Below are positions 1,295 to 51,101 of a DNA stretch of 59,302 bases, piece after piece (the first letter of the stretch is position 1; each line of letters opens with the position of its first letter). Under the pieces are notes generated by a model. It saw only the letters and a list, made by a program, of their open reading frames with translations, was not told the origin of the DNA and searched no databases. The DNA is from a virus: the IMG/VR virus record IMGVR_UViG_3300046167_000227, positions 1-59,302 of that record; one strand, given 5' to 3'. The translations under genes were made by a program, and so were the position numbers.

Positions 1295-1303
1295 TAACTT
1301 TAT

Positions 1304-1936: not shown

Positions 1937-1972
1937 TTTAATTGCCTTTCTATACTACTATCATGTTTTATT

Positions 1973-1998: not shown

Positions 1999-2014
1999 TT
2001 TATATTTATTTAAT

Positions 2015-2730: not shown

Positions 2731-2797
2731 TTTGTTTTAATCCTTTTTAAAATTTAATTGTTAGTAGGTTAATTTATTTATTTGTATAAGTAAAGTT

Positions 2798-2986: not shown

Positions 2987-3001
2987 TTTGTTTAATCCTT
3001 T

Positions 3002-3254: not shown

Positions 3255-3363
3255 TGTATTAAATCCTTTTGTTGTTATTTATTTGTATAACTAAAAACAT
3301 ATATTAAAAACATTGTCAACAGGTATTATTATTTTATTTATATGTATAGCTTTAATGATAGAG

Positions 3364-3382
3364 GTATCAGTTTTTGTGATAC
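3364..3382. promoter_or_regulatory. Operator-like inverted repeat (left copy)
   Basis: GTATCA, a 7-base loop, then TGATAC, followed at once by the palindrome TGATATCA. This gives four TGATA/TATCA half-sites in about 28 bases. The block is conserved in the right copy at 59134-59161. It lies upstream of the first leftward early gene, so it could bind a repressor. Confidence 0.4.
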
Positions 3383-3541
3383 ATGATATCAAAAGATTAT
3401 ATAAAAGAATAACTGTTAATTAATCAGTTTAAACTATGCATATTATACTACCATATATAGCTATAAATTAAATTATTCAGTCTATATATAGCATATAAAT
3501 GTTATTTTATTTCAGATACTTAGCTATTGATGATAGAAAAT

Positions 3542-3659
3542 GGCACTAGGCATGCGACAGGTGGGGGGTATGCGTATACGTACTCAGAGAAATACACAGA
3601 TAGGTATTTTTAAGTGTTAACCACAAGTATAACTGTCAATATACCCATTGCCTAGCACC
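3542..3659. repeat. Imperfect long inverted repeat
   Basis: Left arm 3542-3554 (GGCACTAGGCATG) pairs with right arm 3646-3659 (CATTGCCTAGCACC), with two mismatches and one bulge. The interval contains G6 (3563-3568) and the palindrome CGTATACG (3573-3580), unlike the surrounding AT-rich sequence. Confidence 0.5.
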
Positions 3660-3719
3660 TAATGTGTGACATAAATATCACACTAATTTAACAATCGTAC
3701 ATGAATAAATTAATTGCTA

Positions 3720-3748
3720 TTGACAAGATGTATAAAACCTGTTATAAT
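3720..3748 (+). promoter_or_regulatory. Late-operon promoter, perfect sigma70 consensus
   Basis: TTGACA (3720-3725), a 17-base spacer and TATAAT (3743-3748), both hexamers matching the bacterial consensus exactly. The predicted start falls close to the palindrome CACTTAAGTG at 3764-3773, which could act as an operator. It would drive the rightward genes from 3892. Confidence 0.7.
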
Positions 3749-3763
3749 TAGCTATAACTTAAC

Positions 3764-3844
3764 CACTTAAGTGTAACACTATAATAAAACACTTAAATAA
3801 AAAGATATATACTTGTTAAATACACTTAAATGAACACTTAAGTG
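3764..3844 (+). repeat. CACTTAA iterons
   Basis: Four copies of CACTTAA at 3764, 3790, 3823 and 3835. The first and last are extended to the palindrome CACTTAAGTG. An inverted copy lies at 3610-3616 and another direct copy inside the first late gene near 3968. They are consistent with binding sites for a phage repressor or initiator. Confidence 0.55.
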
Positions 3845-3891
3845 ATATTATTAGAATAAATATCCGTACATATATAAAAATACCCTTGACA

Positions 3892-4098
3892 ATGCGTAAA
3901 AAATCAGTAAAACTATATACACCAGAGAATATGTTAGAAGCATTTTACAGTGCTATCCTAAATAACACACTTAAGAGCTTACATATACCACATAGTTCCG
4001 TGTTTTATGTACGTGCTGCCATTGAAGCTGACACAGGAGTGCGATACACTCTTAAGCATGTAGAGACTGCAATGAAGGCAGAAGGAATGTTAGACTAA
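3892..4098 (+). CDS. Hypothetical protein, 68 aa, first late gene
   Basis: ATG 3892 is preferred over a TTG six bases upstream. The protein begins MRKKSVKLYTPENMLEAFYS and has a compact helical composition. No domain recognised. Its stop overlaps the next start (TAATG). Confidence 0.6.
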   Translation: MRKKSVKLYTPENMLEAFYSAILNNTLKSLHIPHSSVFYVRAAIEADTGVRYTLKHVETAMKAEGMLD

Positions 4099-12502: not shown

Positions 12503-14661
12503 ATGGCAGAAAAAGATGAAGTAACACTAGACGATGATTCCATAGCATTAGAGGATGTAGAGGAAACAGCAGTCGGTGATATAAATGTGAGTGGGATTAT
12601 ACCATTTATTATGGATAGATACCAACGAGCCGAAGACTATCGTAGCAATGATGAAGAACGGTGGTTAAGGTCTTATAGAAATTATAGGGGGTTATACGGA
12701 AGTGATGTTCAATTTACTGAAGCAGAAAAGTCAAGAGTATTTATTAAAGTTACCAAAACAAAAACTCTCGCAGCTTATGGACAGATTGTCGATGTGCTAT
12801 TTGCAGGGAACAAGTTTCCTATTAGCGTTGAGCCGACAGTGTTACCTGAAGGTGTCGCAAGCTGACGTTAGCTTTGACCCAAAGAAGCCTGAACAGCTTA
12901 AGGAGAAACTGAGATGTCTTCGCCTTATGGGTTTAAGGGTGATGGCATGGATTTACCGAAGGGTGCTACTGAAAAAACATTGGCAGAAAGGCTGGGTCCT
13001 TTACAAGACAAGCTGGGAGAAATTGAAGGCTTGGAAGAAGGGGTAGGTAAAACACCTACTGCTGTTACATTTAGTCCTGCTATGGTAGCTGCTAAGTCTA
13101 TGGAAAAACAAATCATGGACCAACTACAAGAGTCAGGTGCAAGTAAGCAATTAAGAAGTACAGCATTTGAGATGGCATTATTCGGAACAGGAGTAATGAA
13201 AGGTCCTTTTGCTGTAGATAAAGAATATCCTAATTGGGATGAGGAAGGTAACTATAGTCCTGTCTTTAAGACTGTACCATCTACATCACACGTATCAGTA
13301 TGGAACTTCTTTCCTGACCCTGATGCTGCCAACATGGATGAAGCACAGTTTGTGATTGAAAGACACAAGATGTCAAGAACACAGCTACGTGGATTAAAGA
13401 AGAGACCTTACTTTCGTGCAAACGTAATTGACGAAGTAGTTGCATCAGGTGAGTCTTATGATAAAAAGTATTGGGAAGATGATTTATCTGACTATGCAGC
13501 AGACCACGGAATAGATAGATTTGAAGTACTAGAATATTGGGGAATGTGTGACGTTGATATGCTTGAGGAAAATGGTGTAGACATACCTAAAGACCTCAAG
13601 GAGTTTGATGAATTACAAGCGAACATATGGATTAGTAATGGTAAGTTAATAAGAATGGTTCTTAATCCTTTCAAACCTGCCACTATACCTTACATGGCAG
13701 CTCCATACGAGTTGAATCCATATTCTTTCTTTGGTGTAGGGTCTAGCTGAAAACATGGATGACACACAGACACTTATGAATGGCTTTATGAGAATGTCTG
13801 TAGACAACGCTGTGTTATCAGGTAACTTACTTATAGAGGTAGATGAAACTAACCTAGTTCCGGGTCAGGACTTATCTGTGTATCCGGGCAAAGTTTTTAG
13901 AAGACAAGGTGGTGCTCCGGGTCAAGCTATCTTCGGTACTAAGTTTCCTAACGTATCAAATGAGAACTTACAACTGTTTGACTAAGGCTAGACAACTTGC
14001 AGACGAGAGCACAGGCTTTCCGTCATTCGCACACGGACAGACAGGTGTACAAGGTGTAGGTAGAACTGCATCAGGTATATCAATGCTTATGAACGCAGCG
14101 GCAGGTAGTATTAAGACTGTTATAAAGAACGTAGACGATTATTTACTCAAGCCATTAGGCGAAGGTATGTTCCGTTTTAATATGCAGTTTAACTTTGACA
14201 AAGAAATCAAAGGTGACTTAGAAGTTGTTGCACGTGGAACAGAAAGTCTTATGGCTAACGAAGTACGTAGTCAGAGATTAATGTCCTTCTTACAAGTGGC
14301 ATCTAATCCTGCACTAGCTCCGTTTGCTAAGTTTCCATATATTATTAGAGAGATAGCTAAGTCTATGGAACTAGACCCTGAAAAGGTAACTAATAATATG
14401 GATGAAGCAGCAGTACAAGCCGAGATACTAAAAGGTATGCAAGGTGCTATGCCACAAGAACAACAACAACCACCACAGGCAGGTCAACCACCTGTAGGTG
14501 CTAACCCACTAGACCCCACAGGAGCAGGTGGTGGTAATGTAGGTACAGGACAAGCACCTGTGCCGGGCGAACAAGGATTTTCAGGAAATGATGGACAAGC
14601 AGGTGCTGCAGCAAATCAAGCCGCTAGTGAACAACCTCAAACTAATGAACAGCTTCAATGA
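12503..14661 (+). CDS. Portal protein (four frameshifts)
   Basis: Head-tail connector subunit at the packaging vertex. Pieces: 12503-12865, a bridging piece in another frame about 12855-12905 (ADVSFDPKKPEQ), 12914-13750, 13755-13985, then the frame of 13909-14661. Joined they give about 719 aa, with the podovirus portal order: N-terminal YRNYRGLYGSD, central GVGKTPTAVTFSPAMVAA and WNFFPDPDA, then AENMDDTQTLMNGFMRMSVD, and a Gln/Pro/Gly-rich C-terminus. Breaks lie near 12860, 12905, 13740 (extra G) and 13978 (extra T). All look like 1-base errors because the downstream frame always continues the expected protein. Confidence 0.75.
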
Positions 14662-14803
14662 TTACATTGATGAATTAATAAAGCAACAACATAAGATACT
14701 AGAACAGTCTAACGACATGATAACTCTACATAGGTCTCAAGGAGCTATAGCAACTTTAAGTAAACTCAAACTATTAAGGGATGAAGTAAATGGCATTAAA
14801 TAA
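14645..14803 (+). CDS. Small coiled-coil protein, 52 aa
   Basis: ATG 14645 overlaps the end of the portal gene. Begins MNSFNDYIDELIKQQHKILE and continues as one amphipathic helix. Conserved placement after the portal suggests a small head-assembly factor, but no family is recognised. Confidence 0.55.
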   Translation: MNSFNDYIDELIKQQHKILEQSNDMITLHRSQGAIATLSKLKLLRDEVNGIK

Positions 14804-16472
14804 ACAAATGGAAATGTTTGAAGATGGTGGTCTCAAAGATGAAGGTGGCATGATTGACGAAGTATCAGGCAATGATGTTCCTCCGGGTTCTACAAGAGAA
14901 GAAGTTAGAGATGACATACCTGCACAGTTAAGTGAAGGAGAGTTTGTATTTCCTGCTGACGTAGTGAGATTCATAGGTCTTGAGAAGTTAATGCAGTTAC
15001 GACAAGAAGCTAAACAAGGACTGAAGCAAATGGAAGCTATGGGTCAGATGGGTAATTCAGATGAAGCTACTATGCCTGATGATTTACCTTTTGATGAAAC
15101 AGACCTTGACATGGAAGACGAATTAGAGTATAATAGAGGTGGAGTAGTTGAAGCAGCTAACGGTACTTATGTAGCACCTACTATTCCAACAGGTAGCCAA
15201 CCACTAGGAACAAATCCAATGGGCAATCCTATGGGAGTACCACAACAAGTAGCAGATGGAGTATCAGGCAGTACGCAGGGAACACCTTATGTACCTAATG
15301 TAGGTAAAATGTATGGAGTAGGAGCAACACCATACGCACCTGTAAGTTATAATCAGTTATTAGGACCTAGTGCAACAGGAGCACCTACGACAGAAACCGT
15401 TAGATACTTTAATGCAGCAACAGGTCAGACACGTATGATACCACATCTAGTAAACGCAGATGGCACAAGAGGTGCAACATTATATCCTGTGCCTGAAGGT
15501 TTTGTTATACAAGAAGAAGCACCTAAAGAGGAAGCTAAGAAGACAACTCAAGTACAATCAACTAAAGTAGCACCTGTAGAATCAGGAGATGGTGGCGATG
15601 GTGGTGCAGGTGGTGGTGCAGTAGACCTTGCAGGAGACCCTTTAAGTTATAGCAGTGTGTTTAGCATGGATGCTTTAGATAAACAAATGGCTAAAATAGG
15701 TGCAATGCAACTTAGTACCCTTGGTAAAGCAGGAGTATTTCAAGGAATTAGTAGTGCCGCAACAGGAAATCCTGAACGAAATCAAATGAAATTAGGTGCT
15801 CTTACACCTCTTTTCACATCTCTTAAAACTCAACTAGGAATTAAAGGTCAGGATTTAGGAAAATTAAAAGGTAAAACACCTGAAGAAATTGCAAAAATTA
15901 GAGGAGTAGTTGCTGCTGATATTGAAAGAGTAACTGCTGCTGTAGACAGATTAACTACTAATATAACATTTTCTAAAGATAAAAACGGAAATACAATTAG
16001 CACAGAATCTAATAAAAGCACAAAAGATACTATAGCTGACGTTAACGCTATGGCAAAACAGTATGGGTTAAAAGAAATTGATACAAAAACTAATGTTAAT
16101 CTCGGTTCTAAAATAGGTCAAAAGATAGCTGAAATAAATCAAGCTATTAAAGAGCAACCTACCTATAGTGAAGACCCAAGCGACACCATAGAAAGCAGAG
16201 ACCCAACAGCAGGTGATGTTTATAGTGATGAAACTCAAACAACGACTGCTGCAGAACAAGCAGCAAATAGAGCTGCTGCAGAGGCTTTTGCGAAGAGTGG
16301 AAGTGATTCTGATAACAACGAATCAAGTAGTGGTTCTGGCTCATCCGTAGATGGTGGTGACTATGGAGTCGGTTCTGAAGCAGGTATGGACTTTAAACAA
16401 GGTGGACTAGCAGGTAAAAAGAAAACACCTAAACCTAAGAAGATGAAGCGAGGTGGATTAGCTTCACGTTAA
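14790..16472 (+). CDS. Virion-associated protein with Gly-Gly motifs, 560 aa
   Basis: Near the N-terminus DDIPAQLSEGEFVFPADVVR, followed by a helical LRQEAKQGLKQMEAMG, matches a recurrent marine-phage virion protein. The middle is low-complexity (Thr/Gly/Pro/Asn). Gly-Gly elements recur (EDGGLKDEGG, YNRGGVVEA, KQGGLAGKK) and the C-terminus is KRGGLASR. Lies between portal and scaffold. Role unknown; probably an internal or portal-associated virion component. Confidence 0.65.
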   Translation: MALNKQMEMFEDGGLKDEGGMIDEVSGNDVPPGSTREEVRDDIPAQLSEGEFVFPADVVRFIGLEKLMQLRQEAKQGLKQMEAMGQMGNSDEATMPDDLPFDETDLDMEDELEYNRGGVVEAANGTYVAPTIPTGSQPLGTNPMGNPMGVPQQVADGVSGSTQGTPYVPNVGKMYGVGATPYAPVSYNQLLGPSATGAPTTETVRYFNAATGQTRMIPHLVNADGTRGATLYPVPEGFVIQEEAPKEEAKKTTQVQSTKVAPVESGDGGDGGAGGGAVDLAGDPLSYSSVFSMDALDKQMAKIGAMQLSTLGKAGVFQGISSAATGNPERNQMKLGALTPLFTSLKTQLGIKGQDLGKLKGKTPEEIAKIRGVVAADIERVTAAVDRLTTNITFSKDKNGNTISTESNKSTKDTIADVNAMAKQYGLKEIDTKTNVNLGSKIGQKIAEINQAIKEQPTYSEDPSDTIESRDPTAGDVYSDETQTTTAAEQAANRAAAEAFAKSGSDSDNNESSSGSGSSVDGGDYGVGSEAGMDFKQGGLAGKKKTPKPKKMKRGGLASR

Positions 16473-16541
16473 TAATCCACAATAATAGGCTACTTATCCC
16501 CCAACAATAACTGGCTACGATAACCCCCAAGGAGAAGACAA

Positions 16542-17426
16542 ATGGCTGAAGAAGCTACTAAAGTAATGGTGGAAGATGCTACACCTAAAAAAGCAATGTT
16601 TATGAATAGACCTTATTCTCAGGAAGAAAGAGTAAAGCGAGATGAAGAAGAACTTGCAAGGCTCGTTGAGGAGCAAAAAGGTACAGAAGAGACTAGCGAG
16701 GAGGAAACTCCTAGTGAAGAAGAACCGACTAACGCAGAAGAGAAAACTTTTAAAAAGAGATATGGAGATTTAAGAAGGCATACTCAGGAGAAAGAGAAGC
16801 AGTTTCAAAAACAGCTAGATGATATGAAAGAGCAACTAGCTAAAGCAACTAAGAAAGAAATGAAGTTGCCTAAGTCTGATGAAGACATAGAAGCATGGGC
16901 AACAGAGTACCCAGACGTAGCTAAGATTGTTGAAACTATTGCTATGAAGAAAGCAAGAGAGCAATCACTTGAGCTAGAAAGTAGAATACAGAAGATAGAT
17001 GAAATGTCTGTTGAAGCTAAGAAAGAGAAAGCTGAAGCAGAACTAATGAAACTTCATCCTGACTTTAATGATATTAGAGATAGTGATGAGTTTCACGATT
17101 GGGCAGATGAACAGCCAAAATGGGTACAGGATGCACTTTATGAAAACGACAATGATGCTAGGTCAGCAGCAAGAGCTATTGACTTATACAAAGCCGATAA
17201 GGGAATCGGTAAGGAAACTAAGACAAAGAGTAATAAGAGTGCTGCTATGGAAGTTGGCACGAAATCTACAAAGACTAAAGTTGATACTACAGAAGCAGGT
17301 AAAAAGATACTTGAGTCTGCTGTTCAAAAGATGTCCTCTGCACAGTATGAAAAACAGGCTGACACAATAATGGAAGCTATTAGGTCAGGCAACTTTGTAT
17401 ATGACATATCAGGTTCAGCTAGATAA
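16542..17426 (+). CDS. Capsid scaffolding protein
   Basis: 294 aa, acidic and Lys-rich, nearly all helix/coiled coil (about 65-170), with a basic C-terminal region. Composition, size and place directly before the major capsid gene fit podovirus scaffolds, which guide procapsid assembly and then leave. Preceded by a good AAGGAGA site. Confidence 0.75.
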   Translation: MAEEATKVMVEDATPKKAMFMNRPYSQEERVKRDEEELARLVEEQKGTEETSEEETPSEEEPTNAEEKTFKKRYGDLRRHTQEKEKQFQKQLDDMKEQLAKATKKEMKLPKSDEDIEAWATEYPDVAKIVETIAMKKAREQSLELESRIQKIDEMSVEAKKEKAEAELMKLHPDFNDIRDSDEFHDWADEQPKWVQDALYENDNDARSAARAIDLYKADKGIGKETKTKSNKSAAMEVGTKSTKTKVDTTEAGKKILESAVQKMSSAQYEKQADTIMEAIRSGNFVYDISGSAR

Positions 17427-17439
17427 ATAAAAAATAATG

Positions 17440-17467
17440 TTGACAAACAAGAATTTATGTATATAAC
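17440..17467 (+). promoter_or_regulatory. Capsid-gene promoter
   Basis: TTGACA (17440-17445), 16-base spacer, TATAAC (17462-17467), followed by TATACATAACTAG. It lies right after the scaffold stop and about 220 bases before the capsid start, so capsid mRNA can be made independently of the long late transcript. Confidence 0.65.
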
Positions 17468-17480
17468 TATACATAACTAG

Positions 17481-17529
17481 AAGTGTAACACAACCTCACG
17501 TTCCCAAACTGAATACTTGTGTTGCACTT
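17481..17529 (+). promoter_or_regulatory. Long hairpin in capsid mRNA leader
   Basis: Arms AAGTGTAACACAA (17481-17493) and TTGTGTTGCACTT (17517-17529) pair over 13 bases with a single G-U, around a 23-base loop. It would sit close to the 5' end of the transcript from 17440, a typical position for an RNA-stabilising structure. Confidence 0.5.
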
Positions 17530-17641
17530 TAAACGACACTTTAGAGATTACCCAATTATGTGAGCCTACACAGGAATAGCTATCCTACGTACAACCTCAA
17601 CGCATGAATGGTCCTTATAAAGTAAAATGACTAAAACTATA

Positions 17642-17658
17642 GTACACATTCCGTGTAC
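17642..17658 (+). promoter_or_regulatory. Short hairpin before capsid ribosome-binding site
   Basis: Perfect six-base stem GTACAC / GTGTAC with a five-base loop, about 15 bases before the AAGGAGA site of the capsid gene. It may keep the start region open or stop ribosome interference. Confidence 0.35.
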
Positions 17659-17687
17659 ATATGATAAATGTTTAAGGAGATTTAAAA

Positions 17688-18746
17688 ATGGCATTTACAG
17701 CAGCAGCTGGTTATGGTAATCTTCCTAACGGTAATTTTAGTCCTATTATTTACAGCAAACAGGTGCAACTTGCGTTCCGTAAGTCATCTATCGTTGATGC
17801 AATCACTAATAATGATTACTTCGGTGAGATTGCTAATATGGGCGATTCCGTTAAGGTTATCAAAGAACCAGAAATAACAGTCAAGGCATATTCTAGAGGA
17901 ACTACAATAACTCCTCAAGACCTTGATGACGAAGAATTTTCACTTAATATTGACAAAGCTAATTACTTTGCATTTAAAGTGGATGATATTGAGGAAGCTC
18001 ATTCACACGTTAACTTTCAACAGTTAGCATCTGATAGAGCAGCCTATAGACTAGCCGACCAATTTGACCAAGATGTACTTGGTTATATGTCAGGTTACAA
18101 GCAATCATCTATACATGGTGCTCCAGACACAGCTAATACAACTACTAATGGTAGTGTAGCTGTTTCAACAGCTGGTTCTGACGAACTCTTATCTTCAATG
18201 AAAATTGATGCTGAAGACTTCGGTGGTTCTGCTGGAGATGCTGTGGCTATCTTACCAAGAACAGGTGGAGCTACTACTGCTGCTCCTGCTAATGGAGATA
18301 GAAACCCATTGACAGTGATTGCTAGAATGTCAAGACTACTAGACCAACAGAATGTTGATACTAACGGAAGATGGTTAGTGTTAGACCCTGTATTTATTGA
18401 AGTACTAAAGGATGAGGACACAAGATTGTTTGATGCAGACTTTGGTGGTTCAGGACTACAGAATGGTTTAGTTCTTAATAATCTACACGGATTTAAGGTG
18501 TATCAGTCAAATAACCTTCCAAGTTTAGGAACAGGACCATCTAATACAGGTGCGAACAGTTCTACAAACTTTGGTATTATTGTTGCTGGTCACTCTTCAT
18601 CAATAGCTACTGCTGAGCAAATCAACAAGACAGAGACTTATAGAGACCCTGATTCTTTTGCTGATATTGTTCGTGGTATGCATTTATATGGTAGAAAGAT
18701 TCTTCGCCCTGAAGCAATCTGTACTGCCGCTTACCACTTAGCATAG
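17688..18746 (+). CDS. Major capsid protein
   Basis: 352 aa. Start MAFTAAAGYGNLPNGNFSP; N-arm, then YSKQVQLAFRKSSIVDAITNN and the DSVKVIKEPEITVKAYSRGT region, typical of HK97-fold capsid subunits of marine podoviruses. It follows the scaffold gene and has its own promoter, leader hairpins and a strong AAGGAGA site, as expected for the most abundant virion protein. Confidence 0.85.
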   Translation: MAFTAAAGYGNLPNGNFSPIIYSKQVQLAFRKSSIVDAITNNDYFGEIANMGDSVKVIKEPEITVKAYSRGTTITPQDLDDEEFSLNIDKANYFAFKVDDIEEAHSHVNFQQLASDRAAYRLADQFDQDVLGYMSGYKQSSIHGAPDTANTTTNGSVAVSTAGSDELLSSMKIDAEDFGGSAGDAVAILPRTGGATTAAPANGDRNPLTVIARMSRLLDQQNVDTNGRWLVLDPVFIEVLKDEDTRLFDADFGGSGLQNGLVLNNLHGFKVYQSNNLPSLGTGPSNTGANSSTNFGIIVAGHSSSIATAEQINKTETYRDPDSFADIVRGMHLYGRKILRPEAICTAAYHLA

Positions 18747-18758
18747 GGAGATTGAATT

Positions 18759-19241
18759 ATGGCGAATATTACTGCTGTTCTTAAAGCCGCTTCTGGCAAC
18801 TCCCAGAGAGGTAGGAACGTATACTACATGGATAATGTTATTGACTTAACTGCTAATAGCATTAATCCAAACGGTGATACTATTCAAGCTATCACAGTTC
18901 CAGCTAATACTCTTATCGTAGCTGCAGGTCTTCAGGTTGTAGAAAGTGCAACTCAGAATACTGGCACAGATGCAACTGCATCACTTGGTTTCACAGGTGG
19001 TGACGTTGATGAGTTTGTTGCAACTTTTGATATTGATGGTGCTGCCGATGGTGCTTATGCTCCTCAGATTGCAATCACAGGTTTGACTGCTTCTACTTCT
19101 GCTGACACTATTGACGTGTTATTAGCAGGTGGTGGTGCATCATTTACTGCTGGTAAAATACGTGTGTATGCAATGATGATGGATATAAGTGACCAAGGTG
19201 ACATGTCTGCTGACGAAGTTGACAGAGACACTTTAGCTTAA
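18759..19241 (+). CDS. Probable capsid decoration protein, 160 aa
   Basis: Beta-rich, with Ala/Thr/Asp-rich low complexity and no Lys-rich region. Begins MANITAVLKAASGNSQRGRN. Position directly after the capsid gene, small size and shared transcription unit (terminator-like hairpin follows) suggest an abundant head decoration protein. No named family recognised. Confidence 0.55.
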   Translation: MANITAVLKAASGNSQRGRNVYYMDNVIDLTANSINPNGDTIQAITVPANTLIVAAGLQVVESATQNTGTDATASLGFTGGDVDEFVATFDIDGAADGAYAPQIAITGLTASTSADTIDVLLAGGGASFTAGKIRVYAMMMDISDQGDMSADEVDRDTLA

Positions 19242-19250
19242 ATCATATAT

Positions 19251-19276
19251 AAGGGAGCAGGGCAACTTGCTCTCTT
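19251..19276 (+). terminator. Predicted terminator after capsid unit
   Basis: Stem AAGGGAGCA / TGCTCTCTT (one G-U pair), eight-base loop, followed by ATCTTTAT. It closes the two-gene capsid unit before the tail adaptor gene. The U-tract is weak, so it may be partial. Confidence 0.55.
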
Positions 19277-19294
19277 ATCTTTATAGGAATTACT

Positions 19295-20218
19295 ATGGCA
19301 GAGACTTACCTAACAATAACAAATAAAGTAATAGCAAGGTTGAATGAGGTTGCATTAACTTCAGCGACCTTTTCTAGTGCTAGGGGTATACAAGTTCAAT
19401 GCCAAAACGCAGTTAATGAATCTATACGTTTTATTAATCAGCGAGAGTTTAACTATCCCTTTAATCATGCTACTGCTACTCAGACACTGACAGCAGGTGT
19501 GGTTAGGTATAGTTTACCTGCTTCTACTAAGACAGTAGATTACAATACATTTAGAATAGTCAAGGATAGTGACTTAGGTAATAGTGGGTATAAATTAAAT
19601 CTACTTGATTATAATGACTACATAAATAGAGTTATAAATCAAGAAGATGAAATAAATACTACAACAACTAGTACAATACACACAGATAGTGTAACAACTA
19701 TAACTGTAGCAAGCACTACAGGATTTGATAGTGCAGGTACAATAGTCATAGGTAATGAGACAATTACTTACACAGGAGTAACTAGTACTACATTTACAGG
19801 TTGTACAAGAGGTGCAAGTAGCACAACAGCTGCTTCAATAGCTAGTGGTATCACAGTAGCACAGTTTGACAGAGGTGGTGTTCCTGAATATGTAGTGAGA
19901 ACACCTGATAATAATTATCTTCTATACCCATTTCCAAATAAAGCATATGCAATAAAGTTTGATTACTACACATTCCCAAGTGACTTATCAGCACATGGAG
20001 ATACTACAACTATACCTGATAGATTTGCACCTGTAATTGTAGATGGTGCTACAGCATTTGTGTATCAGTATAGAGGTGAGACACAACAGTATCAACTTAA
20101 TATGCAGAGATTTGAACAAGGCATTAAGAATATGCAAACACTATTAGTAAATAAATTCTCATACCTACGTTCAACCTTTATAGCTAGAACAGGTAGTGCA
20201 GACATTAGGGCATTATAA
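19295..20218 (+). CDS. Head-tail adaptor / tail tubular protein A-like
   Basis: 307 aa. The N-terminal helical part (NEVALTSATF then AVNESIRFINQREFNYPFNH) and C-terminal part (FAPVIVDGATAFVYQYRGET) fit gp4/tubular-A-type adaptors. Residues about 120-190 hold an inserted Ser/Thr-rich beta domain (GTIVIGNETITYTGVTSTTF) found in many phage structural proteins. It would sit under the portal and start tail assembly. Confidence 0.65.
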   Translation: MAETYLTITNKVIARLNEVALTSATFSSARGIQVQCQNAVNESIRFINQREFNYPFNHATATQTLTAGVVRYSLPASTKTVDYNTFRIVKDSDLGNSGYKLNLLDYNDYINRVINQEDEINTTTTSTIHTDSVTTITVASTTGFDSAGTIVIGNETITYTGVTSTTFTGCTRGASSTTAASIASGITVAQFDRGGVPEYVVRTPDNNYLLYPFPNKAYAIKFDYYTFPSDLSAHGDTTTIPDRFAPVIVDGATAFVYQYRGETQQYQLNMQRFEQGIKNMQTLLVNKFSYLRSTFIARTGSADIRAL

Positions 20219-24408: not shown

Positions 24409-24858
24409 ATGGCATACTTAGGAAATGTAGTACCTGCTAACTTCCAAGCACCACCTGCTGTCGTAAGATTTAATGGTGATGGTTCTGATACAACCTTTGC
24501 ACTTGGAAGAACAGTAGGTTCAGTACAAGAGATACTTGTAAGTGTTGATGGTGTTGTGCAAGATAGTGCAGCTTACACTGTACCTGATGGCTCAACATTA
24601 ACATTTAGTGCAGCACCCTCAAGTGGTACAGGCAATATCTTTGTATACTTTCTTGAGTTATCAGCAGGTAGTGTAACACCTTCAGCAGAGTTCAAGGGTA
24701 ACTTCAAAGGTGGTGGTTTGTTTAGAACTAATGCACAGACTTTAACTGCTGACACAACAATACTAGCCACAGAAAACGCACAAGTTACTGGAACATTTAC
24801 AGTAGATAGTGGTGTGACATTGACAGTGAATAGTGGTGGAAGGTTGGTGATATCGTGA
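24409..24858 (+). CDS. Fibre-module protein, 149 aa
   Basis: Starts MAYLGNVVPANFQAPPAVVR; the pattern VSVDGVVQDSAAYTVPDGS is the hallmark of a small phage fibre domain. The C-terminal FTVDSGVTLTVNSGGRLVIS is beta-solenoid-like. Paralogous to 27901-28359 (same opening and DxxYT pattern). Its last 4 bases overlap the next start. Confidence 0.65.
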   Translation: MAYLGNVVPANFQAPPAVVRFNGDGSDTTFALGRTVGSVQEILVSVDGVVQDSAAYTVPDGSTLTFSAAPSSGTGNIFVYFLELSAGSVTPSAEFKGNFKGGGLFRTNAQTLTADTTILATENAQVTGTFTVDSGVTLTVNSGGRLVIS

Positions 24859-25406
24859 GTACAATCAAAGTAGATACAATTACGGATACAAGTGGCAACA
24901 GTATTCCTTACATGAAGGGTGCTGTGTTACAAGTTCAATATACACAATACACTGGAACATTTTCACAAAGTTTAAGTGCTAATACAAGTACGATTTTAGG
25001 TAGTTCAGTTTTGACACTTAATATTACACCTAAAAGCACATCATCTATAATTAAATTAGATTGTCATGTATTCCATGAGTGGTCAAATCAAGCATATGCA
25101 ACTGAAGCTGTTTGGTTTTTTTATAGAGATTCAACTTTATTAAGAGCACCTACTGAAGGTAACAGAGCCTGTGGTATATCTATGTCAAGATTATCACATC
25201 ATACTGATGATGCTACTAGCACACCTGAAATGGTTTACTATACTTATTTTGATGCTCCTTCAACCACTAGTCAAATAACTTATAAAGTAGGAGTTCGTGT
25301 TTATGCTGGTAGCACTCTTCATGTTAATAAGACAGTTAATGATACTAACAACACTCAAGCAGAGAGAGGTATTAGTTTTATCTCAGCAACTGAGATAGGA
25401 GGATAG
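24855..25406 (+). CDS. Fibre-module protein, 183 aa
   Basis: GTG start overlapping the previous stop. Starts STIKVDTITDTSGNSIPYM; the core contains LTLNITPKSTSSIIKLDCHV, a jelly-roll-like segment also present in 27131-27628. The end (AERGISFISATEIGG) is typical of receptor-binding tips in marine phages. No GDLA ending. Confidence 0.6.
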   Translation: MSTIKVDTITDTSGNSIPYMKGAVLQVQYTQYTGTFSQSLSANTSTILGSSVLTLNITPKSTSSIIKLDCHVFHEWSNQAYATEAVWFFYRDSTLLRAPTEGNRACGISMSRLSHHTDDATSTPEMVYYTYFDAPSTTSQITYKVGVRVYAGSTLHVNKTVNDTNNTQAERGISFISATEIGG

Positions 25407-25407
25407 C

Positions 25408-25845
25408 ATGAGTACAGTAATATTAGACACAATCACAGGCAAGTCCACTGCAACAACCATAACTATTGGCTCAACACCTGTAATTAGTACAAGTGCAAAC
25501 TCTATGACTATTAGAGGTGAAGGTACTGCACATACAAGTATTCAACAAGGGTTGGCAAAAACTCTGGTTAGATTTAATCAAACTGGAACACCCTCTATAA
25601 ATGCTAGTTTTAATATTGCTAGTATTGTTGATGGCGGCACTGGTGATACAACTCTTACAATAACGAATGATTATGCTAATGTAAATTATACTATTAATGC
25701 TCAAAATGATGATAACGCTGTTACTACTCAGATAGTACAAGCAGATGTTTTTGTTGGCTCTTATAGACAAAGAACAGTAGATGGAAATAATTCCTTAGTA
25801 GATGCTCCAATAAATTATACTATAACACATGGAGACCTCGCATAA
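25408..25845 (+). CDS. Fibre-module protein with GDLA end, 145 aa
   Basis: Starts MSTVILDTITGKSTATTITI. The core QQGLAKTLVRFNQTGTPSIN then NYTINAQ matches the modules at 28356, 28793 and 29242. It ends in HGDLA, whose codons (GGAGACCTCGCATAATGG) supply the ribosome-binding site and TAATG start of the next gene. Confidence 0.65.
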   Translation: MSTVILDTITGKSTATTITIGSTPVISTSANSMTIRGEGTAHTSIQQGLAKTLVRFNQTGTPSINASFNIASIVDGGTGDTTLTITNDYANVNYTINAQNDDNAVTTQIVQADVFVGSYRQRTVDGNNSLVDAPINYTITHGDLA

Positions 25846-26249
25846 TGGCAAACGGAACAATAGCATTTGATACATTATCAACAAGTGGACAGATAACAGG
25901 CACAGCTAAGTCTTTGGATACAGATTATGTTGTGAATGGTAGTGCGAAGGCATGGGCTTTTATCACTCAGTCAGATGCAACTATAGAGTCTAGTTTTAAT
26001 GTTACTTCTGCTACTGATGGTGGCACAGGATTAACTTCTATTACACTTACAAATGCTTTTTCTTCTGCAAACATAAGTGGTACTTTTGGTCATGGAAATA
26101 AATCAACTAGCAATCCCGGTCAGAATTTACAAGTTATGTGTGGAACTGATGCTAGTAATACTTATGGAATAGAAGTGGAAAGAAGTGATACTAGTGCTAA
26201 TGCTGATGCAGCTGCAATATCATTACATTTGATGGGAGACTTAGCATGA
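25845..26249 (+). CDS. Fibre-module protein with GDLA end, 134 aa
   Basis: More diverged member: VNGSAKAWAFITQSDATIES and SATDGGTGLTSITLTNAFSS align with the AK-W...SFN...TDxGTG pattern of the family. Ends LMGDLA, with GGAGAC preceding the next ATG. Confidence 0.6.
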   Translation: MANGTIAFDTLSTSGQITGTAKSLDTDYVVNGSAKAWAFITQSDATIESSFNVTSATDGGTGLTSITLTNAFSSANISGTFGHGNKSTSNPGQNLQVMCGTDASNTYGIEVERSDTSANADAAAISLHLMGDLA

Positions 26250-26737
26250 CAATAACCACACCAGAATTTCAAGGCACACATCTTTGGGATAGACTGTGTT
26301 GGGCAAAAGAAAAGCTAGAGCCACACAGAACAGAATACTGTGTCGTATGGGAAGACCCAGAGACACCAGATGAACCTGCAAAGATTACACATCCTGACCC
26401 AAATTGGATGGCTTGTGCATTGCAAGGTGGCATACTTCCCCCTGTAGAAGCCTATTGGGAACTCAAGAAGGATGAAGAAAAGCCTGACTTTGTAAAGCAT
26501 ACAAGAGGTTACTTGTTACACAACACTAAACCTATTGAAGCTATGACAGAAGAAAGGGCAATAGAATATCTTATTATGAAGGACCTACCGAGACATGTAT
26601 GGCAAGACTATGACAAAGCCAACAAACCTCGTATGCTCATTTGTACTAAGTCACAGTTACCAAGCACTAGAGTGTGGCGAAATGCTTGGAAGATTAATGA
26701 AGACATAAACACCACGCATAATGAAGAAGCTGCTTAA
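26246..26737 (+). CDS. Conserved phage protein in fibre cluster, 163 aa
   Basis: Mixed alpha/beta, not fibre-like. Near the C-terminus MTEERAIEYLIMKDLPRHVW then the RVWRNAWKI pattern recurs in marine phages. It shares the R-x-WRxAW ending with tail-fibre assembly proteins, so a chaperone role is plausible. Function not established. Confidence 0.6.
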   Translation: MTITTPEFQGTHLWDRLCWAKEKLEPHRTEYCVVWEDPETPDEPAKITHPDPNWMACALQGGILPPVEAYWELKKDEEKPDFVKHTRGYLLHNTKPIEAMTEERAIEYLIMKDLPRHVWQDYDKANKPRMLICTKSQLPSTRVWRNAWKINEDINTTHNEEAA

Positions 26738-26748
26738 AGGAGAAACCA

Positions 26749-27120
26749 ATGGCAACAACTAACATCGTAGACAAAGATGGTAACAGTATATCTGCTTCAG
26801 ATGCTACTGTTCCTTCAGACAGGCACTTCAGAGGTGCATGGTCATTATCAGGTACAACCATAACAGAAGATTTGGCTGTAGCTAAAACTATATTCAAGGA
26901 TAAAGTAAGGGAAGCAAGAGGTCCTCTACTTGATGCTGAAGATGTAATCTATATGAAAGCATTAGAAGCTGATGATGCAGATGCAAAGACTGCAAGTGTA
27001 GCAAAGAAGAAAGCATTAAGAGATGCTCCTGCTGCAAGTGCAATATCAAGTGCAGACACTATAGCTAAACTTAAAGCTGCTTGGGATACAAGCACATTAG
27101 GTGACAGTCCATACGCATAA
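26749..27120 (+). CDS. Probable tail-fibre assembly protein, 123 aa
   Basis: VPSDRHFRGAWSLSGTTITE followed by KDKVREARGPLLDAED fits the small phage tail-fibre assembly proteins that often read R-x-F-R-x-AW. Helical C-terminus. Located in the middle of the fibre-module array, as expected for a folding helper. Confidence 0.65.
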   Translation: MATTNIVDKDGNSISASDATVPSDRHFRGAWSLSGTTITEDLAVAKTIFKDKVREARGPLLDAEDVIYMKALEADDADAKTASVAKKKALRDAPAASAISSADTIAKLKAAWDTSTLGDSPYA

Positions 27121-27130
27121 GGAGTAGTTA

Positions 27131-27628
27131 ATGGCTTTAACAAAAGTAACAGGCAGTGGGATTGGAACTGTAACCAATCAGTTTGCTGATGCTAATATGT
27201 CGGCAGGAAGTGTGTTGCAAGTATTACAAGCCACATCTTCAACACAAGTAAACATGAACAGTACTAGCTATGCCACAACTGGTTTAACACTTGCTATAAC
27301 ACCAAGTTCAACTTCATCTAAAATATTGATTAACTTTAATACTTGTACTTACAATAATGCTACAACCACATTTGGTGTTTTTGATATATTTAGAGGAACA
27401 GTAAGTGGAACTAGTTTAAGTGGTGGAGCAAATTATGGGTTGGCACAAAATTTTTCTGCTGATGGTGCTATATTAACAACTGTAAATGGTATGGTTTTAG
27501 ATTCTCCTAATACAACAAATGCAACTACATATACAGTAGGTATGAAAAGAGCAGGTACTTCTGCTGTTGTATCTGCTCAAGAAAACAATTCTTTAGGAAC
27601 AATTACACTTATAGAGGTTGGAGCATGA
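27131..27628 (+). CDS. Fibre-module protein, 165 aa
   Basis: Starts MALTKVTGSGIGTVTNQFAD. The core TTGLTLAITPSSTSSKILIN pairs it with the 24855 module. Thr/Ser/Asn-rich beta sandwich, with aromatic ring residues few. Likely a receptor-binding or shaft module. Overlaps the next start by 4 bases. Confidence 0.6.
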   Translation: MALTKVTGSGIGTVTNQFADANMSAGSVLQVLQATSSTQVNMNSTSYATTGLTLAITPSSTSSKILINFNTCTYNNATTTFGVFDIFRGTVSGTSLSGGANYGLAQNFSADGAILTTVNGMVLDSPNTTNATTYTVGMKRAGTSAVVSAQENNSLGTITLIEVGA

Positions 27629-27897
27629 TAGGCGAAGCAATATTAAAAATTAATCCAAATGCCATATATGTTATCAGAGGTAACGATATTGATACTTGTG
27701 AAATAGAATGGTTAGAAGGCACAGCAGAAATATCTAGAGCCGATATAAAAGCTAAAATGACATCAATGGAATATATACCAAAAAGAAAATTAGAATATCC
27801 ATCAATGGCAGACCAACTAGATGACATATATCACAATGGTATAGATGCTTGGAAAGCTACCATTAAAGCTGTTAAAGATAAGTACCCAAAGGAGTAA
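27625..27897 (+). CDS. Small fibre-cluster protein, XkdW-like, 90 aa
   Basis: An N-terminal beta part (NAIYVIRGNDIDTCEIEWLE) is followed by a C-terminal EYPSMADQLDDIYHNGIDAW helix. The YPSxxDQLDxxYH pattern is common in small phage proteins near fibre genes (XkdW-type). Role not established; probably fibre assembly. Confidence 0.6.
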   Translation: MIGEAILKINPNAIYVIRGNDIDTCEIEWLEGTAEISRADIKAKMTSMEYIPKRKLEYPSMADQLDDIYHNGIDAWKATIKAVKDKYPKE

Positions 27898-27900
27898 CGA

Positions 27901-28359
27901 ATGGCATACATAGGCAAATCTCCTTCACAGGGAGTACGTAACAGATTCCAATACCAAGCTACGGCAGGGCAAACATCTTTCAGTGGTTCTGATGCAAACT
28001 CATTAACACTTACCTACACAGATAGTTTGTACCTAGACGTATATCAGAATGGTATATTGCTTGTTCCGGGAGATGACTACACAGCAACTACAGGTACAAC
28101 TGTGGTGCTTGTACAAGGTGCATCACTTAATGACATCATTGAGATGGTAGCCTATGATGTGTTCTCAGTTAACGAGACATACACTAAGACTGAATCAGAT
28201 AACAGATACCCATTCAAAGGTAACAACTCAATCATCAGATTAAATGGACAGACAATAAGTGCAGATATTACAATAGATAGTGATGAGAATGGTGTATCAG
28301 GTGGTCCTATAACGCAAAGTGCAACAGTCACTGTTAATGGATATTGGAGTATAGTATGA
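27901..28359 (+). CDS. Fibre-module protein, 152 aa
   Basis: Starts MAYIGKSPSQGVRNRFQYQA, with the pattern LDVYQNGILLVPGDDYTATTG; clear paralogue of 24409-24858. The C-terminal TQSATVTVNGYWSIV replaces the longer end of that paralogue. ATGA overlap into the next module. Confidence 0.65.
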   Translation: MAYIGKSPSQGVRNRFQYQATAGQTSFSGSDANSLTLTYTDSLYLDVYQNGILLVPGDDYTATTGTTVVLVQGASLNDIIEMVAYDVFSVNETYTKTESDNRYPFKGNNSIIRLNGQTISADITIDSDENGVSGGPITQSATVTVNGYWSIV

Positions 28360-28793
28360 CAAGTCAATTAAATGTAGACACCATTGTAGATAAAGCAGGG
28401 TCAGGTGGCACGAATGTAAAGATAGGTAATACCTCAACGTATGTATCTGATGGTGGTGCAGTTACGCAGAATACTGTGCAAAGTTTAGCAAAGTCTTGGG
28501 TTAACTGGAATGGTCAAGGCACTGTTGCTGTACAAGACAGTATAAATCATAGTAGTCTTACGGACAATGGAACAGGTGATTATACAATCACAATAGCATC
28601 TGCTATGAGTAATGCAAATTATTGTAGACTAGGAATGTGTGGAATGGCTGCTAACAGTCAAGAATGTTTAAGTCAAGCTCAAGCTAGTTACGTTGCAACA
28701 ACCACTCAAGGTAGATACGTTGCAGCTTACGCCAACACTTCAAACGAAGATGTTCCGTACGCAGGTGTTTCTTTACTTGGAGACTTAGCATAA
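28356..28793 (+). CDS. Fibre-module protein with GDLA end, 145 aa
   Basis: ATG 28356 preferred over 28344 because it makes the ATGA overlap. Starts MTSQLNVDTIVDKAGSGGTN; core AKSWVNWNGQGTVAVQDSIN then SSLTDNGTGDYTITIASAMS. Ends LLGDLA, then TAATGG. Closest to the 29242 module (AKSW-NxNGxGT, HSSLTD, ASAM). Confidence 0.65.
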   Translation: MTSQLNVDTIVDKAGSGGTNVKIGNTSTYVSDGGAVTQNTVQSLAKSWVNWNGQGTVAVQDSINHSSLTDNGTGDYTITIASAMSNANYCRLGMCGMAANSQECLSQAQASYVATTTQGRYVAAYANTSNEDVPYAGVSLLGDLA

Positions 28794-29242
28794 TGGCATC
28801 ACAATTAAAAGTAGATACACTCACAGGTGTAACCACAGCAGGTAGCATAGTCGTTACAGGTGAAGGCAATAGTACAACAACTAATCTGCAACAAGGGTTA
28901 GGTAAGTGTTGGATAAATGCTAAGATTATAAGCACTTATGCCACAAGAGATAGTTTTAACTGTTCTGTTACAACCGACCACGGAGCAGGAGAGGTAACTT
29001 ATACTTACACAAATAATTTTTCTAACAATGATTATGTCATATCACATATGAGTAAACAAACGGGTGCTAATGTAGGGGGAATTGGTTTTCCTGCAGTAAG
29101 TTCTGGTGGGTCTGATGCAGATGATGCAGAAAATGCAATGACAACATCAACTTGTAGATGGCAATATAGAAATCAAGATTCAAGCCCTGCTTTTAGAGAC
29201 CAAGAGATTGCAGGTCATATTTGGATGGGAGACCTCGCATAA
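28793..29242 (+). CDS. Fibre-module protein with GDLA end, 149 aa
   Basis: Starts MASQLKVDTLTGVTTAGSIV; core LQQGLGKCWINAKIISTYAT then RDSFNCSVTTDHGAGEVTYT. Ends WMGDLA, followed by TAATGG. The variable half (about residues 85-135) differs from its neighbours, while both ends are conserved. Confidence 0.65.
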   Translation: MASQLKVDTLTGVTTAGSIVVTGEGNSTTTNLQQGLGKCWINAKIISTYATRDSFNCSVTTDHGAGEVTYTYTNNFSNNDYVISHMSKQTGANVGGIGFPAVSSGGSDADDAENAMTTSTCRWQYRNQDSSPAFRDQEIAGHIWMGDLA

Positions 29243-29661
29243 TGGCTAGTATATTAAGAGTAAACACATTAACAGATGCAAGTAGTAATAATTCTACTGC
29301 AATGAGTACAATCAATCAGGGTACAGCAAAGTCTTGGCTTAACTTTAATGGCAGAGGAACTATTGCTGCTCGTGATAGCTTTAATCACAGTAGTTTAACA
29401 GATGTTTCGGCAGGTAATTATACAGTTACTATGGCTAGTGCTATGGGTAATGTAAATTATTCTTTTAGTGGTAATGCAGCAGAAAATAACGCATCATCGG
29501 CAAGTAGAGTAATTAATTTTGGTAGTAATTTTGATTCGGATACTCTTGACCCTAATTTCACTACTACTGCTTTTTCTGTAAATGGATTTTTCTGTAATTC
29601 TGATGGTCAAGAATTTGATATTACTTTTATAACTACACAAATATTTGGAGACTTAGCATGA
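29242..29661 (+). CDS. Fibre-module protein with GDLA end, 139 aa
   Basis: ATG 29242 in TAATG overlap. Starts MASILRVNTLTDASSNNSTA; core AKSWLNFNGRGTIAARDSFN then HSSLTDVSAGNYTVTMASAM. Ends IFGDLA and overlaps the next start (CATGAC). Confidence 0.65.
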   Translation: MASILRVNTLTDASSNNSTAMSTINQGTAKSWLNFNGRGTIAARDSFNHSSLTDVSAGNYTVTMASAMGNVNYSFSGNAAENNASSASRVINFGSNFDSDTLDPNFTTTAFSVNGFFCNSDGQEFDITFITTQIFGDLA

Positions 29662-30671
29662 CCAAAGCAGCAGAATTAGCAAAGATGGGTGAAGTCCTAA
29701 CCAATAGTCAGATTGGTGGGCGAAGGAATATTGCCATAAATGGTGCAATGCAAGTGGCACAGAGGAGTACGTCAGTTACAGGAATAGGTGCATCAAGTGG
29801 TTATTTTACTTTAGATAGATGGTATCTAGAAGCAGGAGATACAGCAGGTAGATTAACTATGACACAAACTGCTGATGGACCTGTTGGATTTGCTAACTGT
29901 ATGAAATTAGATTGCACAACTGCTGATACATCTATTGCAGCAGGTGAAATATTAATTTTACGACAGCATTTTGAAGGTCAAGATGTACAAGCAATAGGCA
30001 AAGGTGTTAGTGGAGCAAAACAAATCACACTTAGCTTTTATGTAAAAGCAAACGCTGTGTTTAATTTTGTTGCAGAACTACAAGACCAAGATAATGATAG
30101 AACAAATGGAAAATTATTTGCTACTACAACAGATTGGGTAAGACATGAGATAACATTTGAAGCAGATGCAGATGATGGCTCAAGTCCATTTGATGATGAT
30201 AACGCTAAGAGTCTTACAATAAATTTTTGGTTGCATGGTGGCTCTTCATTTACTAGTGGCACACTAGCTTCTGGTTGGGAAAATAAAACAAATGCTAACA
30301 GAGCAGATGGTATAAGTAGTTTTTACAGCAGTACAGATAATAACTTTTTTATAACTGGAGTACAACTAGAAGTAGGCTCACAAGCCACACCATTTGAGCA
30401 TAGGTCAGTTGGGGAAGAGTTTTTGTTGTGTTCAAGGTACTATTTCAAAAACTTAGCTCCTGTTTATACAACGCAATATGGGTCAAATGCTATTGCTACT
30501 GTAGAGTTTCCAGTTCCAATGAGAAACACACCTGCTTTGAGTGTTGTATCAGGTACTGCACCAACTTCTTTTGCTGGAAATAATGCTGTTCCTTATGCAT
30601 CTATGTATGTTTATCATCAAAGCAATACTGGTGATGCAATCGCTAATTATCAAGCAGATTCGGAGTTATAG
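29658..30671 (+). CDS. Tail fibre tip / carbohydrate-binding-like protein, 337 aa
   Basis: Begins with TKAAELAKMGEVLTNSQIGG and RRNIAINGAMQVAQRSTS, the start of many phage receptor-binding fibres. The middle has a sandwich-like domain (LDRWYLEAGDT; QITLSFYVKANA; FFITGVQLEVGSQATPFEHR) resembling carbohydrate-binding tips. Ends with an extra C-terminal beta domain. Probably the host-recognition tip; closes the module array. Confidence 0.7.
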   Translation: MTKAAELAKMGEVLTNSQIGGRRNIAINGAMQVAQRSTSVTGIGASSGYFTLDRWYLEAGDTAGRLTMTQTADGPVGFANCMKLDCTTADTSIAAGEILILRQHFEGQDVQAIGKGVSGAKQITLSFYVKANAVFNFVAELQDQDNDRTNGKLFATTTDWVRHEITFEADADDGSSPFDDDNAKSLTINFWLHGGSSFTSGTLASGWENKTNANRADGISSFYSSTDNNFFITGVQLEVGSQATPFEHRSVGEEFLLCSRYYFKNLAPVYTTQYGSNAIATVEFPVPMRNTPALSVVSGTAPTSFAGNNAVPYASMYVYHQSNTGDAIANYQADSEL

Positions 30672-49982: not shown

Positions 49983-50857
49983 ATTTTTTCTTGTACTTAA
50001 TGCTAAATTAGCAGAAGCAAAGGTATTCTTCATGTAAGGCTTAACACTTTGTGGGTTTGCATGTCCTGTGACAGACATTATTTGCCCATTGACACACCAG
50101 CTTCTACCATCTCAGTCGTACCTGTTCTTCTTAAGTCTGCAATCGTAAGCTCTTTAGACAGTCCTGCAGAGTCCATAATCTTTCTGCCTACTATGGATAG
50201 CCTAGTGATGGTGTAAGGCTTGTACGCCTCTCTCTAGAGCGAGGGCGAGGGTGCTACATATTCTTGGAAACCAAAGTCTTCTTTCTGTTGTGTAAGCATT
50301 TAGTTAATCCATCACTTATAGGCAGATGAACTGTTGCACCTCGTCTTGGATTGCTCTAAGTTGAGTATCCTTTTGTCATAATCTATGCTATCAAACTGTA
50401 GCAATCTCATATCTCCTATCCTTTGACACCATTCATATGCCATTTGTACAATTAAACCTAGACTACGATATTGAAAATCTGCATAACAGAAATCTAATAA
50501 CTGCATAATCTGTTCTTTTGTCCATGTAACTTTTCTAGGCTTAGTAACTTTACACTTGAATGTAGAGAATGGATTAGTCTCAGCATAACCCATCTCCATT
50601 CCAAATGAATAAACTTTCCTAGAGGTAGCACATATATGGTTTGCCATATAAATGCCACGTTTTAGCCACACTTCATATGATTGTCTAGCAACTGCACCTG
50701 TCAATTTATTGACCTTAGTTGTATAAACAAACTTATCATCTATCTTAGTGTTCAACATTACAGATAAACAATTTGAATAATCTACTTTAGTTTTATCTGC
50801 TAACATATTGAAATCACTAGACAAATAGTACTTGTCTACTAAGCTATTTATATTCAT
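49971..50857 (-). pseudogene. int: Tyrosine-recombinase integrase, multiply broken
   Basis: ATG 50857 (MNINSLVDKYYLSSDFNMLA) is preferred to 50893 because of GGAG upstream. The frame is open to about 50312. The rest survives in fragments: ATVHLPISDGLTK, MLTQQKEDFGFQEYVAP, KPYTITRLSIVGRKIMDSAG, then DLRRTGTTEMVEAGVSM, IMSVTGHANPQSVKPYMKNT. Catalytic signatures DLRRT, TGH and the Tyr of KPYMK are visible. At least four disruptions (two frameshifts near 50312-50340, an in-frame TAG near 50235, a frameshift near 50085) are denser than elsewhere, so real decay is possible besides sequencing error. Confidence 0.75.
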
Positions 50858-51101
50858 AAGACCCACTCCATCTTGTATAGTGTCCATGTTCACACTCTAC
50901 CTTAGCACCTACTATGTCAGCAAGTTGATGTTCCATGCCATCTAACTTACAGATTTGTTCATAGTCTAATGGACACTTATCGTCTGTTACTGCATTAATA
51001 TTTCTTAATGTTTCTAACATCTCTAAGATTTGTCTTGACTGTTGTTGTGTCAAATTTAAAATTTTATTTATGTCTTTAAATACTATTTTCTTTTTAGTCA
51101 T
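50844..51101 (-). CDS. Hypothetical protein, 85 aa
   Basis: Helical N-terminus (TKKKIVFKDINKILNLTQQQ), three Cys and a C-terminal CEHGHYTRWSGSYEYK. No domain recognised. Overlaps the integrase start by 14 bases. Confidence 0.55.
   Translation of the reverse strand: MTKKKIVFKDINKILNLTQQQSRQILEMLETLRNINAVTDDKCPLDYEQICKLDGMEHQLADIVGAKVECEHGHYTRWSGSYEYK

Follow-up and report, generated by a model that had tools for sequence, protein, structure and literature searches.

The 59,302-base virus contig IMGVR_UViG_3300046167_000227, analysed here over its whole length and referred to as the window, comes from an HMO-2011-like marine podovirus and carries a fibre region that we judge, with high probability, to be a split tail-fibre array, in which fixed, tagged slots hold exchangeable heads and each head brings the translation signal of the next gene. 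In the architecture we propose, an adapter gene followed by three short fibre genes occurs twice, with one module between the two sets and a terminal fibre gene last. Each module combines an N-terminal tag of about 25-45 residues, bound to its slot and probably docking the protein at a fixed fibre site, with a C-terminal body of about 100-150 residues that is probably the receptor-contacting head, and the last codons of the body would double as the ribosome-binding site for whichever gene follows. Because a body would thus supply the following gene's ribosome-binding site, its replacement should leave downstream translation intact next to any neighbour. Bodies swap from phage to phage and from slot to slot; the GGAGAY..GCAT junction and a short conserved AKxW block mark the breakpoints, and gene number and order stay unchanged.

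Results

Searches with the amidase, the terminal gene and the junction pattern supplied the related loci, whose gene types were assigned by profiles; nearly all of these relatives are metagenomic contigs, many of them short. The HMO-2011-like affiliation given in the initial annotation is borne out by 73% nucleotide identity with HMO-2011 in the portal region and by a fibre region that is syntenic with that phage between the gp42-like and terminal genes. One layout is common to the window and the relatives that bear arrays (Table 1; genes are named by their first base in the window): a gp42-like gene, adapter 1, slots 1-3, the 26246 gene, the 26749 gene, slot 4 (with a small accessory gene after it in some cases), adapter 2, slots 5-7 and the terminal fibre gene. 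The isolate HMO-2011 (Puniceispirillum phage, NC_021864) has the identical layout in its fibre genes gp28-gp41, with tags, junctions and body types as in the window but with different bodies; slots 1, 3, 4, 5 and 7 hold AKxW bodies, and slots 2 and 6, which come with accessory genes, hold jelly-roll and C1q bodies, respectively.

All nine small genes listed in the initial annotation are present where it had placed them, and three further small genes (26246, 26749 and 27625) lie inside the array. It had also been suggested that shared junctions allow whole modules to be gained, lost or shuffled as cassettes. Among 59 distinct first arrays, counted from the adapter to the 26246-type gene, 55 hold exactly three modules, as do 24 of the 25 AKxW-bearing second arrays, counted from the adapter to the terminal gene; module number is therefore nearly fixed at three per adapter, and gain or loss of whole modules is not borne out. 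Comparison among relatives thus finds module number and order fixed and yet bodies exchanged at the junctions, so that the corrected picture is one of tagged slots, constant in number, whose heads are exchangeable, and not a variable-length cassette array.

The three paralogue sets proposed for these genes hold up. Every member of the five-member AKxW family (25408, 25845, 28356, 28793 and 29242) matches the tail fiber protein family PHROG 11355 on its own (E 9e-10 to 8e-18), alignment agrees, and a profile built from the five converges on 492 open reading frames (ORFs) of related phages. The 24409/27901 and 24855/27131 pairs are real but distant (BLASTP E 1e-5 and E 3e-6, respectively), and both members of the second match PHROG 6942. 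The model of the slot 1 body is of good confidence (pLDDT 88), its Foldseek matches being trimeric Pgp3 and a TNF-like lectin, and the two jelly-roll bodies (24855-25406 and 27131-27628) share their predicted fold with Chlamydia Pgp3 and the TNF-like Photorhabdus lectin. The jelly-roll family profile matches the last 170 residues of orf22 in PDB 9efk, a 658-residue chain present in 18 copies in that structure and presumably a fibre. The AKxW module at 29242 is predicted to be all-beta (mean pLDDT 87), and its model matches predicted phage proteins, including a Syn5 tail fibre domain.

Adapter 2 links the array to conventional fibres. In four relatives without module arrays (L069, L022, L079 and L049), the adapter-2 domain forms the N-terminus of a longer fibre, and the window's adapter 2 shares 49% identity with the beginning of the 803-aa Peptidase_S74 fibre of L069; the Peptidase_S74 chaperone domain scores above its curated cut-off in all three long fibres scanned (L069, L079 and L049). 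The array accordingly resembles an ordinary fibre that has been split, its attachment part and its distal parts encoded as separate genes. These four relatives (in L069, positions 13618-19636) are close to the window by their core genes and carry long single-chain fibres in place of module arrays; some long single-chain fibres likewise end on GGAG codons ahead of the next start, for example GGAGAACGCATAATG. Adapter 1 approaches the Pfam family Phage_T7_tail (PF03906; E 3e-4, 20.8 bits, against 23.7 bits for HMO-2011 gp41 and a curated cut-off of 25.2). Homology to fibre PHROGs, to S74-type fibres and to TNF-like and C1q bodies suggests that the array proteins are tail fibre or receptor-binding proteins of the virion.

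With exactly three slot-specific tags per adapter, and fibres usually being three-fold, each triplet might be thought to build one heterotrimeric fibre with one chain per slot, as opposed to three homotrimeric or monomeric heads. Single triplets, however, mix folds (jelly roll + AKxW + AKxW; AKxW + C1q + AKxW), so that the heads could not trimerise together, although the tags alone could. We therefore regard a heterotrimer of heads as unlikely.

The junctions between modules look like ribosome-binding sites placed within coding sequence. As first reported, GDLA forms the last four residues of all five AKxW proteins of the window, its codons being GGAGAC(CTC or TTA)GCA with a T following, and the five AKxW modules of HMO-2011 all end GGAGAC..GCA as well; GGAGACYTMGCAT occurs exactly five times in the 59-kb window, each time at one of these ends, where shuffled sequences lead one to expect 0.02 occurrences. 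The proposed spacing was also confirmed, GGAG lying 7 to 10 nt upstream of the following ATG in the ATGA or TAATG overlaps. More generally, a GGAG-type site precedes nearly all gene starts of the array and, for overlapping genes, falls within the preceding gene; the weakest site precedes the GTG start of the slot 1 module (24855), whose own end encodes a GGAGG that serves as the ribosome-binding site of the following gene. Jelly-roll bodies end differently, in (Q/M)EIA(G/Q) with GGAGAT, at a distance to the next ATG similar to that of the AKxW bodies. Among coupled ends, GGAG is present in 30 of 34 jelly-roll and 349 of 362 AKxW bodies, compared with 104 of 424 other overlapping ORF pairs, a baseline that takes in spurious ORFs. 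Two unrelated and mobile body families thus both end in GGAG, which makes the translation signal the feature they have in common.

An alternative is that GDLA is kept as a protein motif, in a trimer tip or as a chaperone or docking contact, and that genome compactness accounts for its overlap with a ribosome-binding site. GDLA does close 110 of 124 modules in loci that were not fetched by junction pattern, and Asp-Leu-Ala is retained beyond what GGAG requires. The terminal glycine codon, however, is GGA in 419 of 427 GDLA ends (98%), compared with 26% of internal glycines, and in 109 of the 110 GDLA ends from the loci just mentioned, so that neither the codon bias nor the prevalence of GDLA reflects sampling. 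Ends other than GDLA mostly retain GGAG in their DNA (GGAGAA, GGGAGT, GGAGTC), a few keeping just a purine-rich stretch; the variant peptides GELA, GSLA and GVLA mostly do so, whereas SDLA, TAVP and AAFD ends, whose next start lies further downstream and is thus uncoupled, lack the motif. Together with the unrelated fold that carries the same signal under another peptide, the codon bias and the GGAG of variant peptides lead us to reject GDLA as a protein motif alone, an account we consider quite improbable.

The tags are bound to their slots and the bodies are exchanged. Tag and body were separated at the AKxW lysine in 454 distinct modules. Modules whose tags are at least 85% identical share a body in 9 of 1,114 pairs, and those with tags at least 95% identical in 6 of 301, while 989 of 1,035 same-tag pairs (96%) occupy a common slot. 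Bodies at 50-80% protein identity show the opposite tendency, with 13 of 55 pairs in the same slot and 42 in different slots (random same-slot expectation 16%); a slot is still often shared by recent body relatives, whereas the slots of older ones are close to random. The body of the window's 28793 module, from slot 6, recurs at 98% identity in slot 2 of a relative (L073), where it carries a slot 2 tag and is followed by the slot 2 downstream gene. Over the 5.9 kb directly upstream of the array, another relative (L003) matches the window at 98.7% identity, but its five AKxW bodies all resemble those of the window only at random level (0.53-0.58; random 0.55), although its tags (0.77-0.99) and its junctions, taken together with the next gene start (0.84-0.99), are kept. 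HMO-2011 tags match 14 environmental modules, and the body is shared in none of the 12 pairs displayed. No pair of bodies at least 50% identical was found on the same contig, so that the donors were probably other phages, though few same-contig pairs exist and the result is merely suggestive. The pattern of conserved ends and variable middles noted within the window is far more striking between relatives, and the in-frame shuffling suggested for the modules applies to C-terminal bodies at the junctions but not to whole genes, whose N-terminal part stays with the slot.

Ordinary fast divergence offers another reading of these comparisons, in which modules are inherited vertically within their slots, host pressure drives rapid evolution of the bodies, and purifying selection for docking and translation holds the ends, without any exchange. 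It would fit the weak common core of the bodies, their conserved ends and the same-slot position of most very similar bodies. It does not fit near-identical bodies under different tags and in different slots, random-level bodies between phages that are 98.7% identical next to the array, or different folds in one slot. As the sole process it is refuted by the cross-slot pairs, unless every one of them is an assembly chimera, and we hold it to be highly improbable.

The breakpoints of exchange are visible directly in the alignments. In 1,105 pairs that share a tag but not a body, identity stays near 0.9 as far as AKxW, falls to 0.37 in the body (random 0.35), and returns to 0.91 across the junction and 0.86 at the next gene's start; ten body-sharing pairs with different tags show the mirror-image profile. 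The steps are sharp, lie at the AKxW codons and in the final 15 bases of the gene, and run in opposite directions for same-tag and same-body pairs, and direct swaps such as that between window module 28793 and L073 show breakpoints at base level. At the 5' border, the AKxW block keeps chiefly its amino acids, while third codon bases vary. At the 3' border, the TAATG or TGA context is mostly slot-linked, while the Asp-Leu-Ala codons vary within slots and depend only weakly on slot (entropy 3.13 bits in total, 2.37 given slot and 2.63 when shuffled), a combination which suggests that many crossovers fall in or beside GGAGAYYTNGCAT.

Short conserved blocks do border each exchanged body, as a dedicated exchange system (a site-specific recombinase acting on the junctions, a shufflon or a diversity-generating retroelement) would lead one to expect, and an integrase-like ORF lies at 50312-50893. 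To such a system we assign scarcely any probability: the array holds no near-identical direct or inverted cassettes and the contig no silent body copies, codons and a ribosome-binding site account for the motif while the leucine codon is free to vary, jelly-roll bodies end on another sequence, and the integrase match is short and below its curated cut-off. Shufflon-type or invertible fibre cassettes are excluded for 24.0-31.1 kb, where near-identical copies in either orientation are absent, and with respect to a diversity-generating retroelement, the array has no repeat pair and no reverse transcriptase was found among the proteins scanned, which were part of the window's ORFs. The ORF at 50312-50893, on the minus strand, encodes 193 aa that match the N-terminal part of Phage_integrase (E 2e-5, just under the curated cut-off); it has no catalytic C-terminal part and may be a truncated or frameshifted integrase.

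Discussion

Several observations weigh against the interpretation of the array as tagged slots with exchangeable heads. The AKxW body found nothing in a PDB profile search and nothing significant with Foldseek against PDB, and the spurious ORFs in the GGAG baseline affect the comparison of coupled ends. Asp-Leu-Ala is conserved more strongly than a ribosome-binding site demands, perhaps because the junctions descend from a common ancestor or because these residues have a minor role in the protein. Where bodies are at least 90% identical, 11 of 20 pairs share a slot, so that exchange within a slot is there commoner than exchange across slots. Finally, the swap pairs rest on assembled contigs, and single pairs could in principle be chimeras; the isolate HMO-2011 nonetheless has the same layout and junctions.

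We envisage that bodies are most likely exchanged by ordinary recombination between co-infecting phages at short shared blocks, or else by recombination at random sites followed by selection for products with an intact tag and junction; the data do not separate these two routes. Nucleases encoded by the phage could participate, and no clear annealing recombinase was found in it. A role of the array in receptor-binding diversity, as the initial annotation proposed, appears likely from homology. It is an evenly balanced question, in our estimation, whether widespread marine phages possess a standardised multi-slot fibre platform with address tags, in which at least two unrelated head families independently gained a ribosome-binding C-terminus and with it compatibility with any slot, forming a population-wide pool of heads.

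Adhesin exchange in the gp37/gp38 system of T4-type phages resembles the array in that short conserved motifs border the variable tips, like the array's exchange points, but each T4-type fibre bears one adhesin and no multi-slot array is known there. The branched tail-spike complexes of Ackermannviridae (PMC11414711) likewise place several receptor-binding proteins on a particle through conserved N-terminal domains and exchange their C-terminal parts, although theirs are large spikes with XD/TD domains, whereas the modules of the window are genes of 130-180 residues that bear short tags, the adapter is a gene of its own, and the border of exchange encodes a ribosome-binding site. Pfam and PHROG scans found no gp10-like XD docking domain, and the tags are just 25-45 residues long; the array may still work like such a branched complex. 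The host recognition modules of Alteromonas phages A5 and V22 (PMC10579305) also comprise a marine fibre with a small downstream chaperone that has moved between unrelated phages, but there whole fibre-chaperone units transfer, and the parts of that report considered here do not describe fixed slots or shared junctions. Domain mosaicism of receptor-binding proteins (PMC10684548) similarly involves ongoing shuffling of protein fragments; it is a general survey, in the consulted portion of which tagged slots or translation signals at the borders are not described. The HMO-2011 genes themselves are annotated merely as tail fibre, and the open-licence literature searched does not describe the slot system, which is weak evidence of novelty.

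Tail-fibre shuffling in general is known; the interest of this array is that sequence alone reveals which unit moves, where its borders lie and why, plausibly, they are conserved. Since unit, borders and slots are explicit, metagenomes lend themselves to direct counts of how often probable receptor-binding parts are replaced, and since the heads are small, self-contained domains, binding tests are practical. The translation signal may act as a standard connector, a constraint on expression preserving a short matching sequence exactly where heads join, which suggests a link between translational coupling and evolvability.

Gene inventory of the window

The plus strand of the window encodes the coat protein, the amidase and the fibre region, and the minus strand DNA polymerase, primase, a DnaB-like helicase, a Cas4-type exonuclease, endonuclease VII and ribonucleotide reductase.

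Table 1. Genes and junctions of the fibre array, with coordinates in the window.
Feature	Coordinates	Strand	Evidence
Adapter 1, stand-alone N-terminal fibre domain	24409..24858	+	PHROG 18673 tail fiber protein E 1e-34; equivalent to HMO-2011 gp41
Slot 1 module, tag MSTIKVDTI + TNF-like jelly-roll body	24855..25406	+	PHROG 6942
Slot 2 module, AKxW body	25408..25845	+	PHROG 11355 and slot assignment
Junction GGAGACCTCGCATAATG (GDLA + stop + next start)	25831..25847	+	
Slot 3 module, AKxW body	25845..26249	+	PHROG 11355
Junction GGAGACTTAGCATG	26235..26248	+	
Conserved TPEFQGTHL-type gene closing first triplet	26246..26737	+	103 related ORFs, same place in loci
Conserved small gene	26749..27120	+	PHROG 20196 E 5e-31; PHROG 4912 tail fiber assembly E 0.008 (weak similarity)
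Slot 4 module, jelly-roll body	27131..27628	+	PHROG 6942; AKxW or C1q body instead in relatives
Small accessory gene after jelly-roll body	27625..27897	+	PHROG 9114, no function assigned there
Adapter 2, stand-alone N-terminal fibre domain	27901..28359	+	49% identity to L069 fibre N-terminus
Slot 5 module, AKxW body	28356..28793	+	PHROG 11355 E 8e-18
Junction GGAGACTTAGCATAATG	28779..28795	+	
Slot 6 module, AKxW body	28793..29242	+	PHROG 11355; body 98% identical to slot 2 body of L073
Junction GGAGACCTCGCATAATG	29228..29244	+	
Slot 7 module, AKxW body	29242..29661	+	PHROG 11355 E 6e-16; model pLDDT 87
Junction GGAGACTTAGCATG	29647..29660	+	
Terminal fibre gene	29658..30671	+	PHROG 4492 tail fiber protein E 2e-47; weak CBM_4_9 match below cut-off

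The 26246 gene has no PHROG or Pfam match, despite its conserved position in about 100 loci. Accessory genes of the 27625 kind come after jelly-roll or C1q bodies in relatives, and we would guess that the product is possibly a chaperone. A scan of a genome collection with the junction returned three metagenome-assembled contigs only (L282-L284), in bacterial genome bins of Hyphomicrobiaceae, Candidatus Aegiribacteria and Rhodobiaceae, each with the GDLA/TAATG junction GGAGACYTNGCATAATGGC once; these carriers are possibly prophages or mis-binned phage contigs. The ends of the window (1-4000 and 56000-59302), where no tRNA was found, carry only short ORFs and DUF932- and GP88-like genes, and their G+C content is 21-23%, compared with 33-41% elsewhere.

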